From contig LKUE01000191.1 in the NCBI GenBank assembly GCA_001412365.1, positions 1 to 23,775 on the forward strand: a DNA stretch of 23,775 nt, written 5' to 3'. The position numbers were made by a program, and so were the translations under genes. Positions 5,430 through 23,738 of the stretch are shown piece after piece; position 1 is the first letter of the stretch, and each line of letters opens with the position of its first letter. Source of the DNA: Desulfuromonas sp. SDB. Its GTDB lineage: Bacteria > SDB-A. The notes under the pieces are model-generated. The model saw nothing but the letters and a program-made list of their open reading frames with translations. It had not been told where the DNA came from and did not search any database.

Positions 5430-6575
5430 ATGTGTGGAATTTTTGTAATTAATCCAGGCTCCACTAGCGATGAATTAAGCTTTTATAAAGATGATCAGCT
5501 GGTTCTTCATGATGTGTCCAGATATAGTCCTGATCAACTGGCTCCTTACGAACATCAATCTGTGCTATCTCAACTTGATTTCAGATTTAAATTGATTGTT
5601 GAAACTATTGAAAAAAATCAGATTAATTTAAATGATATTGATGGAATCATCGGACGGGGAGGTCTGCTCCATCCCATCCCCAGCGGCACCTATTTAGTTG
5701 ATGAAAAAATGCTGGAGGATTTAAGACAAGGATTGATGGGAGATCATCCTTCCAATTTGGGAGGTATATTAGCAGTTATGCTGGCTCAACTGGTAGAATC
5801 TTCCACGGAGAAATCCATCCCTGCCTTTATCGCAGATCCGGTGGTGGTAGATGAAATGTGGGAGTGGTCCCGCTATTCAGGAATGCCTGAAAATCCGAGA
5901 ATTTCAATTTTTCACGCCCTAAATCAGAAAAGAGTGGCTCGAAATGTTGCTGAGAAAATTGGTAAACCTTATCAGGAGTTAATATTAATTGTCATTCACG
6001 GGGGGGGAGGAATCTCAGTGGGACTTCATTACAAGGGAAAAGTGGTGGATGTGAATAATGCCCTGGACGGGGAAGGACCCTTCACTCCTCAGAGAAGTGG
6101 AGGAGTTCCTGCAGGGAGGTTGGCCAGAATGTGTTTTTCAGGAAAATACAAGTTAGATGAGATCAAGTTGAAAATCAAAGGAAGAGGAGGATTGGTTTCT
6201 TATGTGGGAACTTCTGATCTGGTTTTACTGGAGAATTACATTAAGGGTCAGCCAGTTGATTTATTCCAGCAGAAACAAATTAAACCTGAAATTACTCCTC
6301 AAAAAGCAGCAAAGATTGTGGAGGCAATGTCCTATCAAATAGTTAAAGAAGTAGGCAGCTTAGCTGCTGCGGCTGGAGTTGCTCCTGATGGAATAGTGTT
6401 CTCAGGAGGAATTGCCTACTGTGATTTGGTCGTTGATTTTATCAGGGAAAAATTGTCCTGGATTTCAGAGATATTTGTAATACCGGGAGGCGATGAAATG
6501 TCCGCACTTAATGACGCTGCCAGAAGAGTTTTATCCGGGGCAGAAAAAAGCAAGTGCTATAGTGATTATATTTAA
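5430..6575 (+). CDS. buk: Butyrate kinase family (ASKHA acyl kinase)
   Basis: 381 residues, somewhat longer than the ~355 of clostridial butyrate kinase. Family blocks appear in order: INPGSTS near the N-terminus, GRGGLLHPIPSGTY, the DPVVVDE block, a PRISIFHALNQK block, VIHGGGGISVG (phosphate-binding loop), NNALDGEGPFTPQRSGGVP, KGRGGLVSYVGT, and SGGIAYCDL near the C-terminus. The enzyme interconverts butyryl-phosphate plus ADP and butyrate plus ATP; related enzymes also use branched-chain acids. Two differences stand out: the usual NPGSTSTK carries Asp-Glu in place of Thr-Lys, and the usual HMGGGTSVG reads HGGGGISVG. No phosphotransbutyrylase gene is visible next to it. It is the last gene of the plus-strand cluster, with a good SD (AAAGGAGAAGAC before ATG). 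Family is certain; the substrate and full activity are not. Confidence 0.85.
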   Translation: MCGIFVINPGSTSDELSFYKDDQLVLHDVSRYSPDQLAPYEHQSVLSQLDFRFKLIVETIEKNQINLNDIDGIIGRGGLLHPIPSGTYLVDEKMLEDLRQGLMGDHPSNLGGILAVMLAQLVESSTEKSIPAFIADPVVVDEMWEWSRYSGMPENPRISIFHALNQKRVARNVAEKIGKPYQELILIVIHGGGGISVGLHYKGKVVDVNNALDGEGPFTPQRSGGVPAGRLARMCFSGKYKLDEIKLKIKGRGGLVSYVGTSDLVLLENYIKGQPVDLFQQKQIKPEITPQKAAKIVEAMSYQIVKEVGSLAAAAGVAPDGIVFSGGIAYCDLVVDFIREKLSWISEIFVIPGGDEMSALNDAARRVLSGAEKSKCYSDYI

Positions 6576-6641
6576 TCTAAAATCAGCTTTTTTGCTTCAA
6601 GCCGGGACATAAACCGGAGTTTCAGTACATAATATTATTGG

Positions 6642-6669
6642 AAAATTTCAGGTTCCAGGTAAAATTTCA
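6642..6669 (+). repeat. Two 9-base direct repeats (AAAATTTCA)
   Basis: AAAATTTCA occurs at 6642-6650 and again at 6661-6669, 19 bases apart, with CAGGT also doubled between and beside the copies. The repeats lie about 80 bases upstream of the nrdR promoter. They could be an operator, but AT-rich 9-mers recur by chance. Confidence 0.3.
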
Positions 6670-6738
6670 TATACATTTTTCAAAAGCATGAAAATCGCTT
6701 TTATAAACTATATTATAACGTAGTTTTAATTTTTTTTA

Positions 6739-6754
6739 ATACAATTTCTTGACA
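6739..6754 (+). promoter_or_regulatory. Distal NrdR box
   Basis: The site ATACAATTTCTTGACA matches the NrdR-box consensus (acaCwAtATaTwGtgt) at about 10 of 16 positions, 8 of 10 in the core. It ends on the -35 element and begins exactly 31 bases before the better proximal site, leaving a 15-base spacer. That is the spacing known for paired NrdR boxes, where NrdR binds on one face of the helix. Confidence 0.55.
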
Positions 6755-6778
6755 TTAATGATTATCTAAACACAAAAT
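6749..6778 (+). promoter_or_regulatory. Sigma-70-type promoter of the nrdR-nrdD-nrdG operon
   Basis: A perfect TTGACA at 6749-6754 is followed after 18 bases by CAAAAT at 6773-6778 (four of six to TATAAT). Both hexamers are overlapped by NrdR-box-like sites, so repressor binding would directly exclude RNA polymerase. Confidence 0.5.
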
Positions 6779-6785
6779 ATGGTGA
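6770..6785 (+). promoter_or_regulatory. Proximal NrdR box
   Basis: The site ACACAAAATATGGTGA matches the NrdR-box consensus at about 13 of 16 positions, including ACAC on the left and GTG on the right. It covers the -10 region about 115 bases upstream of nrdR itself, which fits autoregulation together with control of the anaerobic reductase genes. Confidence 0.7.
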
Positions 6786-6898
6786 TTTTTGTCATGTTTT
6801 TAATTAAACTCTGAACTTACTTTCGAGAAATGAAACGTGAATAATAATTTATATTAATTTGATATTCCAGTAAACCAGGATAGGGAATAGGAGGAGAT

Positions 6899-7363
6899 AT
6901 GAGATGCCCTTTTTGTGGAAGTGAAGAAAATAAAGTTGTTGATTCAAGACCGAGCAGGGAAGGGCAGGCAGTTAGAAGAAGAAGAGAGTGCTTGTCCTGT
7001 AAGAAAAGATTTACCACTTACGAATATGTTGAAAGATTTCCACTCATGGTAATTAAATCAGATGGTCGGAGAGAGCCCTTTAGCAGGGATAAATTGATGG
7101 GGGGCATCGAGTTGTCCTGTAAAAAAAGACCAATTTCTATGGATCAGATAGAGTCAATGGTTAATGATATTGAAACTAATGTCAGCAGTTTATCAAAAAT
7201 GGAAGTTCCCTCCAATAAGATCGGAGAAATGGTTATGGAATCTCTTAAAAAACTAGATGATGTCAGTTACGTACGTTTTGCTTCAGTATACCGGCAATTT
7301 AAAGATAAAAAGGAATTTCTTGAAGAGCTCATGAACATGTTTGAACAGGAAAGAGAGGTATAA
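6899..7363 (+). CDS. nrdR: Transcriptional repressor NrdR of ribonucleotide reductase genes
   Basis: 154 residues, the standard NrdR length. An N-terminal zinc ribbon has Cys3, Cys6, Cys31 and Cys34 (MRCPFC and CLSC), followed by an ATP-cone domain from about residue 46 to 136 (KSDGRREPFSRDKL at its start, YVRFASVYRQF near its end). NrdR senses ATP/dATP through the cone and binds paired NrdR boxes in RNR promoters when dATP is plentiful. Here such boxes lie in its own promoter, and the reductase genes follow directly (3-base gap to nrdD), so repression would act on the whole operon. The start is set by AGGAGG four bases before ATG and by the conserved Met-Arg/Lys-Cys-Pro N-terminus. Confidence 0.97.
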   Translation: MRCPFCGSEENKVVDSRPSREGQAVRRRRECLSCKKRFTTYEYVERFPLMVIKSDGRREPFSRDKLMGGIELSCKKRPISMDQIESMVNDIETNVSSLSKMEVPSNKIGEMVMESLKKLDDVSYVRFASVYRQFKDKKEFLEELMNMFEQEREV

Positions 7364-9532: not shown

Positions 9533-10237
9533 ATGTTATTCGGAGGATTGTTAAAGTTTTCTGCATTAGATTATCCCGGTCATCTAAGTGCAGTGGTATT
9601 TACCCAAGGTTGTAACTGGAGATGCCCTTTTTGCCATAACCCTGAATTAATACCCCTGAACTGCTCAAATCCGATAAGTAATGAGAAGATTTTTAATTTT
9701 TTAAAAACCCGTCTGGGATTGCTGGAAGGAGTATGCATCACCGGAGGGGAACCAACTATCCAAAATGGTCTGATTGATTTTATCCAGGAAGTTAAACAGC
9801 TGGGGTACAAGGTGAAATTAGATACTAATGGTTCCCACCAAGATGCAGTGGAAAAAATAATTTATCAAGCCCGTCCGGATATGTTAGCTATGGATATTAA
9901 AACCAGTTGGTCTGGTTATTGTAAAGCCACTGGGGTTAAATTAAAGCAAAATTTTTTTGACCGTTTTAAACAACTGGTAGAATTTACCGAAGATAATGAT
10001 GTTGATTTGGAACTTAGAACAACAGTGGTGCCAGGATTAGTGGATAAGGAAGATATAAAAAAAATTGGAGAATGGCTGGGAGGAACCAGAAAGTATGTAT
10101 TACAACAATTCCGACCGGAGGTCACCTATAATCCGAATTTCATTGGTCTTTCTCCTTATTCTTCAGAACAGGTTAAAGAAATGGCCAAGTTAGCCCAGCA
10201 GTTTTTCAACCGGGTAATTGTACGAGGAGTTGATTAA
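9533..10237 (+). CDS. nrdG: Anaerobic RNR activating protein, radical SAM (NrdG2 type)
   Basis: 234 residues. The radical-SAM cluster motif CxxxCxxC is at Cys27, Cys31 and Cys34 (GCNWRCPFCHNPE), preceded by the family's N-terminal signature GGLLKFSALDYPG; a GGEPT motif for SAM binding follows near residue 72. It would use a 4Fe-4S cluster and SAM to place the glycyl radical on NrdD, whose gene is directly upstream. Length and sequence fit the longer activase subfamily (sometimes listed as NrdG2 or a pyruvate-formate-lyase-activase-like protein) rather than the ~155-residue enteric NrdG. No good SD precedes the ATG at 9533, so expression may lean on coupling to nrdD. The last 8 bases overlap the next gene. 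Confidence 0.92.
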   Translation: MLFGGLLKFSALDYPGHLSAVVFTQGCNWRCPFCHNPELIPLNCSNPISNEKIFNFLKTRLGLLEGVCITGGEPTIQNGLIDFIQEVKQLGYKVKLDTNGSHQDAVEKIIYQARPDMLAMDIKTSWSGYCKATGVKLKQNFFDRFKQLVEFTEDNDVDLELRTTVVPGLVDKEDIKKIGEWLGGTRKYVLQQFRPEVTYNPNFIGLSPYSSEQVKEMAKLAQQFFNRVIVRGVD

Positions 10238-12326
10238 AATTAGTAAAAGCGCTAATGTCAGAAAAAATAAAAAATTGTTGAATATTGAAAAAATCTTTAT
10301 TTATTTTATTTTAGTTCTGACCCTGTGGGGATGGTCAGTTAAATATCCCCGCATTCCCCTGACTGATCTGAATTTTCTGCTGATAGTAGCCCAGTCCGCC
10401 GGATTGATTTATGCGTATTCACGTAACCGGATTATCACTAAAACTCAATTGTTAATATCGGGTATGTTCCTGCTTATCTCACTGGGGCTTTGCTTATTAG
10501 TGTGGAATTGGAGCAAATTCACTCCCTTAACCATGGTGTTATTACCGGTTATGACTGTTCATTTGGGGATGGTCTATCCGCAGATAAAATCGTGGTATCG
10601 TCACTACGGTTTTTTTGGTTTAAAGGTATTATACCTGTTAGGTTTATTAATATTGATTGCGGAATTTCTAGTGGTTGTCGGTGTGTTGAAAACCTCCCTT
10701 ACCCCAATGAACCTGGGTACCTTGAATTTAAGTTGTTGGGGTTTGGTGTTGCTAGTTTTGACAGGAGGATGGTTTTTTCAGTATTTTAGAAATAAAGCTG
10801 TTCTCTTCCGCCGCAAGCTGCAGTACTTGCTGTGGGGGTTGTTGCTTTCAACAGCTGCTGGTTTGACAATTTATCTTTGGGAAAAATTTGAGTGGAGTTG
10901 GATAATTTTTATACCAGGATTTTACTTTGCATATTTGGCCACTTCTCCTGGTCATCAATCAAGTCCCACCAGGTCAATATTGGTTAAGCTGTTATCGGGA
11001 ATTCTGACTTTCCTGATCAGCTTATCCTTGTGTTTAATTCCGGTTAAATTGTATTCCCTTCCTCTGATCATTGTATTTCTGTACGGTGCTTTATTTGCCT
11101 CCATGATTGTTTTCTTTTACCCCCAGGTAGAAAATTTCTTTGACCGTTTGTTGTTTGGACCGAGAAGGCAAAGAGTGACTAAAGTGGCGGAGTTTATTGA
11201 TGAACTGTACCACTATACAGAATTTTCCAGGTTGACCGGGCAATTTACTTCGACCATCAGAAAATTTACAGATGCTCAGTACTGTATTTTGTTGCTGAGA
11301 AAACAAGATGATTTTGAAGTGCAAATCAGTGATGGAGAAGTGAGCATACCTTCTCAATTCAGTTTTAACTGCCATCAACCCCAGGGAATAATTAATTATA
11401 TTGAAAGTGTGGCCAGGACAGTGATCATTGACCAGGAAGACTTCAATGTCGGATTTAGAGAAATCTCGGTTGAAGATAAAGTGTATCTTTCCAAAATTAA
11501 TACCCAATGGATTTTTCCCCTCTATCTGGGAAAAACATTGTGGGGTTTAGTTCTGGGGGCAGGGATGAATAAGCCCCTGGACAAATGGTATCAGGACAAG
11601 CTGATTCAACTGGCATGTTTAGTTGTTCCCATGATGAATTTGCTAAAGGAAAGCCAAGTGAGATTACAAACTCAGGTTGAACTTCAGCAAAAAGAATACC
11701 AGCGGTATCTTATTTCCAAAGTTGAGCAAATGAATAAAGCGGTAAAATTTAAAAATTTAATATTTCAAAAAGTAACTTTAATCGGGGCCGACCCCGGTAA
11801 CCTTGTCAATATTGTTCAAATTTCTGATGGGAATTTTATTGCCGGCAACCTGCATGGGAAAGATGGCATGGATAGCATTATACAGATTCTTGGTCTGAAT
11901 AATTTATTAGATAAAACTTTTGATTTTTCCCAGTTCAATCCCCTTGAACTGTTCAAATCTGAAAAATTAGTTTTAGATGATTACGCTTTAGTTGCCGGAG
12001 ATGAGAGCGGATTTAAACTTTGGTCATCAGGGCAGGGATGTTGTTTTGGTATTTATTCCCACGGTGTTGAAAAAATCGAAGGAAAATGGTATCAATTCAA
12101 TTCCCGGTTGAACAAATTAGTTTTATTCAGCAAAGAAGTTTACCATTTGAAAAATGTAAGACATCAAAACCTGTCTGATGATATCATTTATTCAGGGCTG
12201 GTTGAGATAAACTGGAAAGATAGGAAGCCAATTGAAAAAATAAGGGAATTATTATTAAACTTCACTGCAAATTCAAATGTTGAGAGTGATGTTAAGATTT
12301 TAACTATTACACTATGCCAAAATTAG
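10230..12326 (+). CDS. Multi-TM protein with GAF-like and degenerate SpoIIE/PP2C-like domains
   Basis: About 698 residues. The first ~300 contain some ten hydrophobic segments, ending in PQVENFFDRLLFG, the basic/aromatic exit helix common in 7TM-type sensor kinases and RsbU-like phosphatases. A GAF-like region follows (about 320-475, with DAQYCILLLRK and FPLYLGKTLWGLVLGAG), then a helical linker (to about 512), then a C-terminal domain that follows the SpoIIE/PP2C fold: ADPGNLVNIV for ADxGGDFYDV, AGNLHGKDG for GDVSGKG, KLVLFSKEV for LLLYTDGV, and SDVKILTIT at the end for DDITLLV. In all these places the metal-binding aspartates are missing or replaced, so it is probably a pseudophosphatase. 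The start is ambiguous: TTG at 10230 follows GAGGAG directly and gives an 8-base overlap with nrdG; TTG at 10218 is also possible. The domain call is my own alignment from memory. Confidence 0.6.
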   Translation: MIKISKSANVRKNKKLLNIEKIFIYFILVLTLWGWSVKYPRIPLTDLNFLLIVAQSAGLIYAYSRNRIITKTQLLISGMFLLISLGLCLLVWNWSKFTPLTMVLLPVMTVHLGMVYPQIKSWYRHYGFFGLKVLYLLGLLILIAEFLVVVGVLKTSLTPMNLGTLNLSCWGLVLLVLTGGWFFQYFRNKAVLFRRKLQYLLWGLLLSTAAGLTIYLWEKFEWSWIIFIPGFYFAYLATSPGHQSSPTRSILVKLLSGILTFLISLSLCLIPVKLYSLPLIIVFLYGALFASMIVFFYPQVENFFDRLLFGPRRQRVTKVAEFIDELYHYTEFSRLTGQFTSTIRKFTDAQYCILLLRKQDDFEVQISDGEVSIPSQFSFNCHQPQGIINYIESVARTVIIDQEDFNVGFREISVEDKVYLSKINTQWIFPLYLGKTLWGLVLGAGMNKPLDKWYQDKLIQLACLVVPMMNLLKESQVRLQTQVELQQKEYQRYLISKVEQMNKAVKFKNLIFQKVTLIGADPGNLVNIVQISDGNFIAGNLHGKDGMDSIIQILGLNNLLDKTFDFSQFNPLELFKSEKLVLDDYALVAGDESGFKLWSSGQGCCFGIYSHGVEKIEGKWYQFNSRLNKLVLFSKEVYHLKNVRHQNLSDDIIYSGLVEINWKDRKPIEKIRELLLNFTANSNVESDVKILTITLCQN

Positions 12327-20339: not shown

Positions 20340-21663
20340 CTATAAACACAGTATTTTAGTAGTGGATGATGAGATTTCGCAACGCGAACTTTTAACCGGA
20401 GCTTTGGTTAAAGAAGGATATGAGGTTATACAGTGCGGGGATGTTGAGAAAGCAAAGCAGGCTTTTCTGAATAATTTGATTGATGTGGTCATTACCGATC
20501 AAAAACTGGACAAAAACCAGGAAGGAATTGATTTACTAAAATGCTGCAAAAAAATAAACCCGGAAATTCCGGTAGTGCTGATTACTGCTTATGGTGATAT
20601 TGAAAATGCAGTATCCGCGATGAAATTGGGGGCTTTTTATTATCTGACCAAGCCCATAGAGCTTAATGAATTATTGACCATCATTAACAAGGCTATTCAA
20701 GATCTAAATATTATCAGGGAAAGCAGATTGATTCAGGATAAATATTTAATGAATTTAAAAGAATATCCAGTGGTGGCGGAAAGTTTGGAGATGAAAAATA
20801 TATTATCCATTATCTCCAGGATTGCTCCTTATCCAATTTCAGTATTGATTACCGGGGAAAGCGGGGTGGGCAAAGAAGTGGTGGCCAGGTTAATTCACGG
20901 TACTTCTCCCCGAAGTAAAAATCCTTTTATTGCAGTTAACTGTTCGGCAATTCCGGAAACTTTGCTGGAAGCTGAATTGTTCGGAGCAGAAAAAGGGGCG
21001 TACACAGGAGCTCATACTTCCCGCAAAGGCAGGTTTGAACTGGCTGATCAGGGAACTATATTTTTAGATGAAATTGGAGATGTCTCTCCTGCCATTCAGG
21101 TTAAACTGTTAAGGGTGCTGGCGGAAAAGAGTTTTGTAAGATTAGGAGGAGAAAAGGTTGTCAAAGTGGATGTCAAGGTAATAGCGGCGACCAATCAAGA
21201 TCTTGAAGAAAAAATAAAACTTGGCTGTTTTCGTGAAGACTTATTTTACCGTTTAAATGTGGTGGCAATAAATATACCTCCGTTGAGAGAGAGGAAGGAG
21301 GATATTGTACCGCTCACTGAGCAGATCATGAATTCACTGCGGAGTAAAATGCCGGAAAAGAAAGAAATAAAAATATCCTGGGAAACCCAGAAGATATTAA
21401 TTAAACATCATTGGAAAGGCAATATCCGGGAATTGGAAAACGTGCTTCATCGCGCTTTTGTATTATGCCGGGGAAACCTGATAGAGCCACAGGATCTAAA
21501 CCTTCATCCTCCCACCGGAGATCTTTCTTTGGAAGAAGTGGAAAAAAATCATATTTCCAGAGTATTGAACATGACTGGAGGTAATATTCAGAAAGCTTCA
21601 GATTTACTTAAAATCCACCGGAATACTCTCAGGGATAAAATCAATAAATACGGTTTGAATTGA
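20323..21663 (+). CDS. Sigma-54-dependent response regulator (NtrC family)
   Basis: 446 residues. A receiver domain (about 8-125) starts with ILVVDDE and has the predicted phosphorylation site Asp59 in VVITDQKL. The central AAA+ domain (about 145-375) has Walker A GESGVGKE, the sigma-54 contact loop read as GAYTGA (Tyr in place of the usual Phe of GAFTGA), Walker B GTIFLDEIGD, and the REDLFYRLNVV region with arginine fingers. A Fis-type helix-turn-helix ends the protein (GGNIQKASDLLKIHRNTLRDK). Phosphorylated by the upstream kinase, it would hydrolyse ATP to open sigma-54 promoters. The gene overlaps the kinase by 17 bases and lptD by one base. Its target sites are not known, and I find no clear sigma-54 promoter for this operon itself. 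Confidence 0.95.
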   Translation: MNKKNNYKHSILVVDDEISQRELLTGALVKEGYEVIQCGDVEKAKQAFLNNLIDVVITDQKLDKNQEGIDLLKCCKKINPEIPVVLITAYGDIENAVSAMKLGAFYYLTKPIELNELLTIINKAIQDLNIIRESRLIQDKYLMNLKEYPVVAESLEMKNILSIISRIAPYPISVLITGESGVGKEVVARLIHGTSPRSKNPFIAVNCSAIPETLLEAELFGAEKGAYTGAHTSRKGRFELADQGTIFLDEIGDVSPAIQVKLLRVLAEKSFVRLGGEKVVKVDVKVIAATNQDLEEKIKLGCFREDLFYRLNVVAINIPPLRERKEDIVPLTEQIMNSLRSKMPEKKEIKISWETQKILIKHHWKGNIRELENVLHRAFVLCRGNLIEPQDLNLHPPTGDLSLEEVEKNHISRVLNMTGGNIQKASDLLKIHRNTLRDKINKYGLN

Positions 21664-23738
21664 TGTTTGTACTCTGGTGTATAATTTTAAGCATGTCTAA
21701 TGAACCAGTTTCTTACCAAGCTGGGTATATGTCCTATGACTGGTTAAATAAAACAGTAATTTTGAGAGATTCCGCGCAGGTAGTATATCAGGACATCATT
21801 TTAAGTGGAGATACCATATATTATTATCCGGAAAGAGAAATTATTGAAGTAAGAGGCAATATGAAACTGGTGCAGGGAGGGGAGGAGCTGTTTGGCGACG
21901 AACTGATCTTTAATCTATCCACCAGTTACGGAATTGTGGATAGGGGAAAAACTCATATTCCCGAAGGATACTTTACTGGCGAACAAGTATACCAGCTCAA
22001 TGATAAACTGTGGTTAGTTAGCAATGGTACCTTTACCACCTGTGAACAGGATGATTATCATTTTTGGGGCAGCAGGATGGTGATTGAACATGATAATATG
22101 CTGATTGCAGAACCGGTAATTTTATATATTGGCAATGTCCCCGTGGCTGCTCTCCCCTGGTGGTTTTATCCTATTAAAAAAGGGCGTCACAGCGGCTTTT
22201 TATTTCCTCAATTTGGGAATAGCTCTACCGAAGGCCGTTATGTAAAAAAACTGGCTTATTATTGGGTGATTAATGATTATGCTGATATAACTTACTACCT
22301 GGATATCATGGAGAAAAAGGGAATAAGATTTAATGGAGAGGGAATTTATTTAATTAAACCTTACTTGTCGGGATCAATATCCGGAAGTTATATCAGGGAA
22401 ATTGATACGGGGATTGAACGCTGGAGAATTGAAGGAAATCACCGTCACCAGATCAGTCCCACTCTTAATTTATTTGGACAAGCGGACTGGCAAAGTGACC
22501 GCAGGTATCGTCTGGACTATCAGGAAGATATTCTGGTGGATTTAAATAAACAAACTTCTTCCTTTCTATCCCTGTCCAAGAGATGGAATTCTTTTGCTTT
22601 ACAAATTTTATTATTAAGACAGGAAAATTTATTGAATAATACGGTTACTGCAAAAATACCTGAATTATCCTATTCCATTCCTTCCCGTAAGTTTTTCAGC
22701 AGGGGTTTCTTATCTTCTGCTTACTATTCCTTTTCCGGTAATTTTTACATTAATTCATTTTCTGACAGCGTAAATAATTACAAAACATATTATACCAGTA
22801 ATAATTTTTCTTTGCAGAATCCTGTTAGTTTAGGGGGGATATTGATTTTAACTCCTTCCTGGAGCGGCAATTTTAGCATTTACCATACTGATACCAGTTC
22901 TTCCTGGTATCATCAGCGGGATTGGAATTTTTCCATTTCTGCTTTGACTCACCTCTACGGTATGTCTCAATGGGGAATTTGGAAAATAACCAGGTTTAGG
23001 CATGTAATTACACCGTCTATAGCATATAGATATTCCCCCCCCACCAGGGCAGGAGTTATAGGCGACACAGTTTTCAATTATAACTTGGGAGATGAGACTT
23101 CTGAGTTGAATTTAAATCTCAATCAGGCAATTCAGGTTAAATGGAGATCGGGAGAGGAGGAGAGAAAATTTGAATTGTTTTCCCTGAACACTACAACAAA
23201 TTATTACTTTCATAACCCCAGTAAGCCCTGGTCAAATGTAAATTTTTACTTTGATTTTAAACCGGTAAATAATGTCAATTTCAGCGCCAACCTGGTTTAT
23301 GATCCGTACAGCTGGGACCGGATTAGTTCCAGCTATCAGTTGAATTCCAATTTTTCATATAAGCTTGATAATTTATTTTCAGGTCAACATCAACTCTACA
23401 GATTGTATACTGACAACCAGGAACACTACATGCGTGCAAATTTATCTTATTCCTATACCAAAAATCAAAACTTTAAAAATCAACAAATATGGGGTTCGAT
23501 TTCCTTAGATCCCACTGATAATTGGACCTTAACCTATTCCGCCAGATGGGACCTGGAAAAAGGAAGCATGGTTAATCAAAGTCTGTCCCTTTACCGGGAT
23601 ATGCATTGTTGGGAAGCATTTTTTTCCTGGCAAAAATTTGGAACAAGATGGACTTATTCTTTTACCATCAGGATAAAAGACATCCATGATATCAGAATAA
23701 AAAGAGATATGATCAATTTGTTTGTGCCCAGGATTTAA
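21663..23738 (+). CDS. lptD: LptD-like LPS transport/assembly outer-membrane protein
   Basis: About 691 residues. An N-terminal OstA/LptA-like beta-jellyroll (about 15-150: SYDWLNKTVILRDSAQVVY, then GDTIYYYPEREIIEVRG and GEELFGDELIFN) is followed by a large barrel rich in aromatic, Asn and Ser residues to the C-terminus, with the LptD-typical link GRHSGFLFPQFGNSS and a Cys in TFTTCEQDDYHFW. It would insert LPS or related lipids into the outer leaflet with an LptE-like partner that is not seen here. The start: the ATG at 21663 overlaps the activator's stop as TGATG, pointing to translational coupling; TTG at 21660 is the alternative. The hydrophobic N-terminus (FVLWCIILSM) works as a signal but lacks any basic residue before it. 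The start is short, the rest complete. Confidence 0.85.
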   Translation: MFVLWCIILSMSNEPVSYQAGYMSYDWLNKTVILRDSAQVVYQDIILSGDTIYYYPEREIIEVRGNMKLVQGGEELFGDELIFNLSTSYGIVDRGKTHIPEGYFTGEQVYQLNDKLWLVSNGTFTTCEQDDYHFWGSRMVIEHDNMLIAEPVILYIGNVPVAALPWWFYPIKKGRHSGFLFPQFGNSSTEGRYVKKLAYYWVINDYADITYYLDIMEKKGIRFNGEGIYLIKPYLSGSISGSYIREIDTGIERWRIEGNHRHQISPTLNLFGQADWQSDRRYRLDYQEDILVDLNKQTSSFLSLSKRWNSFALQILLLRQENLLNNTVTAKIPELSYSIPSRKFFSRGFLSSAYYSFSGNFYINSFSDSVNNYKTYYTSNNFSLQNPVSLGGILILTPSWSGNFSIYHTDTSSSWYHQRDWNFSISALTHLYGMSQWGIWKITRFRHVITPSIAYRYSPPTRAGVIGDTVFNYNLGDETSELNLNLNQAIQVKWRSGEEERKFELFSLNTTTNYYFHNPSKPWSNVNFYFDFKPVNNVNFSANLVYDPYSWDRISSSYQLNSNFSYKLDNLFSGQHQLYRLYTDNQEHYMRANLSYSYTKNQNFKNQQIWGSISLDPTDNWTLTYSARWDLEKGSMVNQSLSLYRDMHCWEAFFSWQKFGTRWTYSFTIRIKDIHDIRIKRDMINLFVPRI

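Follow-up and report, generated by a model that had tools for sequence, protein, structure and literature searches.

A membrane-anchored GAF sensor with a degenerate SpoIIE-type output domain, probably a non-catalytic protein-binding switch, in an uncultured bacterial phylum

The question raised by this locus is whether a protein laid out like an RsbU/SpoIIE-type sensor phosphatase, in which metal-ligand aspartates have been replaced, still removes phosphate or acts in some other way. The gene lies in the window, by which we mean the whole stretch of 23,775 nucleotides analysed here, from a rare, uncultured bacterial phylum. A single open reading frame (10218-12326, plus strand) encodes the sensor, as the initial annotation (10230-12326) had held. 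The first in-frame ATG occurs only at codon 83, and the candidate starts, TTG codons at 10218, 10230 (the start in that annotation), 10272, and 10275, coincide with the end of nrdG or lie close to it. When the window protein alone was compared with Pfam, no family was matched, PF07228 included; a single-sequence NCBIfam scan gave no relevant match, and searching PDB sequences with the family profile yielded one match, insignificant and unrelated.

Among 60 genomes searched, orthologues were found only in three other examined genomes of the host phylum (G001, G002, and G003, together referred to as genus 2), and these three proteins and the window protein make up the ortholog set. Identity is about 20% between genera and 30-50% within. 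A first scan of contigs gave no match, a second scan that used the alignment matched G002 only, and a plasmid search gave no match. The reading frame is unbroken in all four phylum genomes despite the low identity, and a decaying pseudogene was rejected on that ground.

Table 1. Coordinates of the sensor gene, its predicted domains and key residues, and of the genes discussed with it
Feature	Position	Strand	Basis or remark
Putative sensor pseudophosphatase CDS	10218..12326	+	702 aa, start codon uncertain; orthologues in 4/4 examined phylum genomes
Membrane domain, ~8-10 segments, residues ~20-318	10275..11171	+	Hydropathy; homologous to L011/L016 membrane part
GAF-like sensor domain, residues ~325-485	11190..11672	+	hhalign Prob 69, E 4.5e-5
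Helical linker, residues ~486-519	11673..11774	+	Helix predicted in both low-confidence models
N-terminal part of degenerate PPM domain, residues ~520-631	11775..12110	+	No significant alignment
C-terminal part of SpoIIE-type PPM domain, residues ~632-702	12111..12323	+	hhalign Prob 97, E 1.2e-10; controls; hmmsearch
K639, TDG metal aspartate position (SpoIIE D746 equivalent)	12132..12134	+	Orthologues S/T/S; ligand numbering PMC5468089
S690, first D of DDxT motif (SpoIIE D795 equivalent)	12285..12287	+	Orthologues S/K/T
Glycosyltransferase-like gene, weakly PF13528	12314..13309	+	Overlaps sensor gene by 13 bp
STAS gene	L055 4271-4597; L056 4024-4317; L057 4190-4516; L058 4476-4769		Between mraZ and rsmH

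A SpoIIE/PP2C-like domain had been proposed for the C-terminus, and profile comparisons agreed with this over its last part. In 290 genomes, positions ~620-688 of a profile built from the four orthologues matched the C-terminal end of SpoIIE phosphatases, about 20 proteins in which the GGD, DVSGKG, TDG, and DD motifs are intact. When the C-terminus of the family was compared with 22 SpoIIE domains in an HMM-HMM alignment, the match reached Prob 97 (E 1.2e-10), and the controls, ten column shuffles and a reversed profile, all stayed at Prob < 1. Significant similarity was confined to the last ~70 residues, over which profile similarity places the sensor in the SpoIIE/PPM superfamily by descent. 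Moreover, the membrane/GAF part of the family profile matched L011 and L016, intact TM-GAF-SpoIIE proteins from the 290 genomes, the former being 845 aa long with an intact SpoIIE domain. Because both the C-terminus and the membrane/GAF part have such matches, we infer that the sensor is descended from an active TM-GAF-SpoIIE sensor phosphatase. In G012, the active TM-GAF-SpoIIE relative (L079 7823-12172) has a second SpoIIE gene as its tandem neighbour, and glycolysis-like genes lie nearby.

The remaining architecture was largely as first described. Against the GAF regions of SpoIIE proteins, the GAF region of the family scored Prob 69 (E 4.5e-5), compared with at most 0.3 for shuffled profiles, and an identity table showed this domain to be the best conserved part of the sensor overall. 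Ten membrane segments had been proposed; the protein is indeed multi-spanning, with 8 segments by hydropathy in the window protein and 8-10 across the family. A helix at the proposed linker was predicted in both structure models, each of low confidence: the whole protein modelled alone had a pLDDT of 38, and an orthologue C-terminal domain, with that of the window as the second row, a pLDDT of 45. Fold searches with the latter model found no significant match and no PPM match, which at such low confidence says little. Of the checks proposed at the outset, the profile search thus returned SpoIIE for the last ~70 residues and nothing for the N-terminal part of the domain, and the structure comparison was of little weight either way.

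The metal ligands of SpoIIE are D628, the carbonyl of G629, D746, and D795 (PMC5468089). As shown in Table 1, two of these aspartates can be placed securely in the sensor, and both are replaced. The TDG motif reads SKE in the window protein and TSE, STD, and TSD in the orthologues, so that the D746 position holds K in the window protein, S in G003, T in G001, and S in G002; the D795 position holds S, S, K, and T in the same order. Neither aspartate is present in any of the four orthologues; each of the 22 active relatives has both. None of the four proteins therefore has the TDG and DD aspartates that mark an active SpoIIE/RsbU-type phosphatase, and in the proposed check for conservation of the substitutions in homologues it is the loss itself that is conserved, the replacing residues being variable.

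The evidence was of another kind for the first part of the domain. Most active relatives have ~22-27 more residues than the sensor between the GD and TDG positions. Compared alone with the SpoIIE profile, the N-terminal part of the domain gave no match (Prob 0.2), and neither the D628 region nor the region of the PPM switch helices could be aligned to SpoIIE. A scan of the window protein for a DVSGKG-like motif, the site of D628-G629, found nothing significant (p = 0.29 against shuffles) within this region, in which alignment is not confident. In the orthologue L003, a stretch scored p = 0.004 but lay elsewhere in the alignment and lacked the motif aspartate. MAFFT pairs ADPGNLVNIV and AGNLHGKDG of the window protein with the GGD and DVSGKG motifs, and their equivalence is plausible but unproven because the D628 region cannot be placed. 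Of the initial claim that aspartates are replaced at every metal-ligand block, the block LVLFSKEV was thus upheld, and the two blocks before it depend on that pairing.

Two other readings of the domain were weighed against a PPM domain that has lost its catalysis. The sensor might be a chimera in which only the C-terminal subdomain comes from SpoIIE and the first part has been replaced, as the absent profile match (Prob 0.2) and the reduced length of the N-terminal part would allow; however, the order of strands and helices in the low-confidence model is compatible with PPM, and a domain that has lost its active site would be expected to lose precisely the motifs of the DVSGKG region, which leaves the chimera unlikely. 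Alternatively, the protein could still be a metal-dependent phosphatase whose ligands have shifted by one residue. An acidic residue is conserved in all four orthologues one place after each lost aspartate (D or E at the glycine of TDG, and D691), and these neighbours may retain some metal binding. Shifted catalysis is nevertheless decidedly improbable, given that none of the 22 active relatives examined has lost [T/S]DG or the first D of DD, that the domain is shortened, and that the window protein has no significant DVSGKG-like motif.

The reading that we favour, at a probability of roughly 65%, is that of a membrane-anchored GAF sensor whose output is a catalytically dead PPM domain derived from SpoIIE/RsbU, predicted from sequence and by analogy to bind a protein partner in the manner of RssB. 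A signal sensed by the membrane/GAF part would be relayed by the helical linker and bring about a conformational change in the degenerate PPM domain, which would then bind or release a partner protein without dephosphorylating it. Both the loss of phosphatase activity and signal-dependent binding are what we infer here; given the lost aspartates, the sensor probably works through partner binding and not through removal of phosphate.

The neighbourhood of the gene was examined for a possible partner. Upstream lie nrdR and NrdD-like and NrdG-like genes (the latter two named from their translations), and downstream the glycosyltransferase-like gene is followed by a convergent DUF3352 gene. No partner-switching gene is among these neighbours, as had been noted, and the reported coupling to the glycosyltransferase-like gene was seen as a 13-bp overlap. 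A match to PF19838 (E 1.3e-45) marks the product of 21660-23738, elsewhere in the window, as an LptD-like outer-membrane protein, a hint that the envelope has two membranes. The sensor might control the overlapping glycosyltransferase-like protein and so make the synthesis of envelope glycans respond to a membrane signal, and in each of the four genomes the one gene abuts the other or overlaps it. However, the sensor gene lies between ribonucleotide reductase genes and the glycosyltransferase-like gene in all four as part of a whole syntenic block (nrdR, nrdD, nrdG, sensor, glycosyltransferase, DUF3352, with acetate-kinase-like and purD genes further out), so that adjacency is unspecific. Moreover, in G003 the glycosyltransferase-like gene (L063, about 6091-7086) is interrupted, with two overlapping matches and stops inside the second, possibly an assembly error, while the sensor frame is intact. 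In neighbourhoods of such glycosyltransferases from other genomes (14, with the gene located in 13), none of the genes beside it gave a match to the sensor profiles. Because of the block-wide synteny, the break in G003, and the lack of a sensor-like neighbour elsewhere, the glycosyltransferase-like protein is probably not an obligate partner, and its control by the sensor is an improbable reading.

A STAS protein is the stronger candidate; SpoIIE-type domains dock STAS proteins (PMC11418112). A single STAS protein passes the Pfam cut-off in each of the four genomes (a weak second match falls below it in G000). The gene for this protein always lies between mraZ and rsmH (names from translations) in a division/cell-wall cluster unlinked to the sensor gene, and in the protein a serine or threonine precedes the conserved glycine at the usual phospho-site. 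This one clear STAS protein of the genome is the first partner candidate. In a variant of partner switching, the dead SpoIIE domain would dock this protein and sequester or release it according to the membrane signal. Against such docking stand the unlinked gene, the absence of an RsbW-like kinase over the Pfam cut-off from the three genus-2 genomes, and the β7-β8 flap, one of three substrate-docking loops, which by eye appears trimmed; we regard it as tentative and rather doubtful. RsbW-like matches over the cut-off were found in G000 only, two of the four among hydrogenase-/ferredoxin-like genes by their translations. Two RsbW-like ATPase-domain proteins of G000, at L059 849-1352 and L060 2195-2884, stand beside DRTGG-like and ferredoxin/hydrogenase-like genes (also from translations). 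PF07228 matched once per genome, a PP2C protein by Pfam in the window's genome and frames of the same size in the other three, and no second SpoIIE-type match was found in any of the four. A STAS protein, an RsbW-like kinase, and a SpoIIE-type phosphatase were not found together in one genome, and the classical partner-switching circuit looks incomplete in the host phylum, because three of four genomes have no RsbW-like kinase over the Pfam cut-off and none has a second SpoIIE-type match. The initial annotation had envisaged a pseudophosphatase that could sequester an anti-sigma antagonist; the degenerate SpoIIE domain and the conserved loss of aspartates speak for the former, and with the circuit apparently incomplete the sequestering is no more than a possibility. 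That the GAF pseudophosphatase and the STAS protein form a phylum-wide pair, controlling envelope growth by sequestration without kinase, phosphatase, or sigma factor, is very improbable.

From eukaryotes, PPM pseudophosphatases are well known. Two of them, PHLPP2 and TAB1, likewise have a diverged active site, and with their unrelated architecture they are remote parallels only. Active RsbU/SpoIIE-type phosphatases, among them L011, L016, and Bacillus subtilis SpoIIE, share with the sensor the order of membrane part, sensor part, linker, and C-terminal PPM domain; the membrane/GAF part is homologous in L011 and L016, and the last ~70 domain residues in the type as a whole. In contrast to them, the sensor family has no equivalents of D746 and D795, an unrecognisable DVSGKG region, and a shortened domain. 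RssB is a PPM-fold adaptor without active-site residues that retains linker/switch regulation (PMC5468089, PMC7226468, PMC12143880). As judged from sequence, the sensor would resemble RssB of Escherichia coli in principle, as a regulated, non-catalytic, PPM-derived protein-binding domain; the residue loss that defines this kind is seen, and the PPM fold is putative, both structure models being of low confidence (pLDDT 38 and 45). RssB differs in being soluble, with a receiver domain in place of the membrane/GAF part, and in delivering σS to ClpXP; moreover, the last PPM strand is absent from E. coli RssB, whereas its sequence is recognisable in the sensor.

In searches of the openly available literature for bacterial SpoIIE pseudophosphatases, RssB was the sole case found. 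Interest in the present case is moderate, since the bacteria have not been cultured and the function is predicted. If our reading is true, a conserved membrane-sensor version would provide, alongside RssB, another independent example of a sensor phosphatase that became a non-catalytic switch, and it would allow a test, in another setting, of whether the PPM switch can govern binding in place of catalysis.
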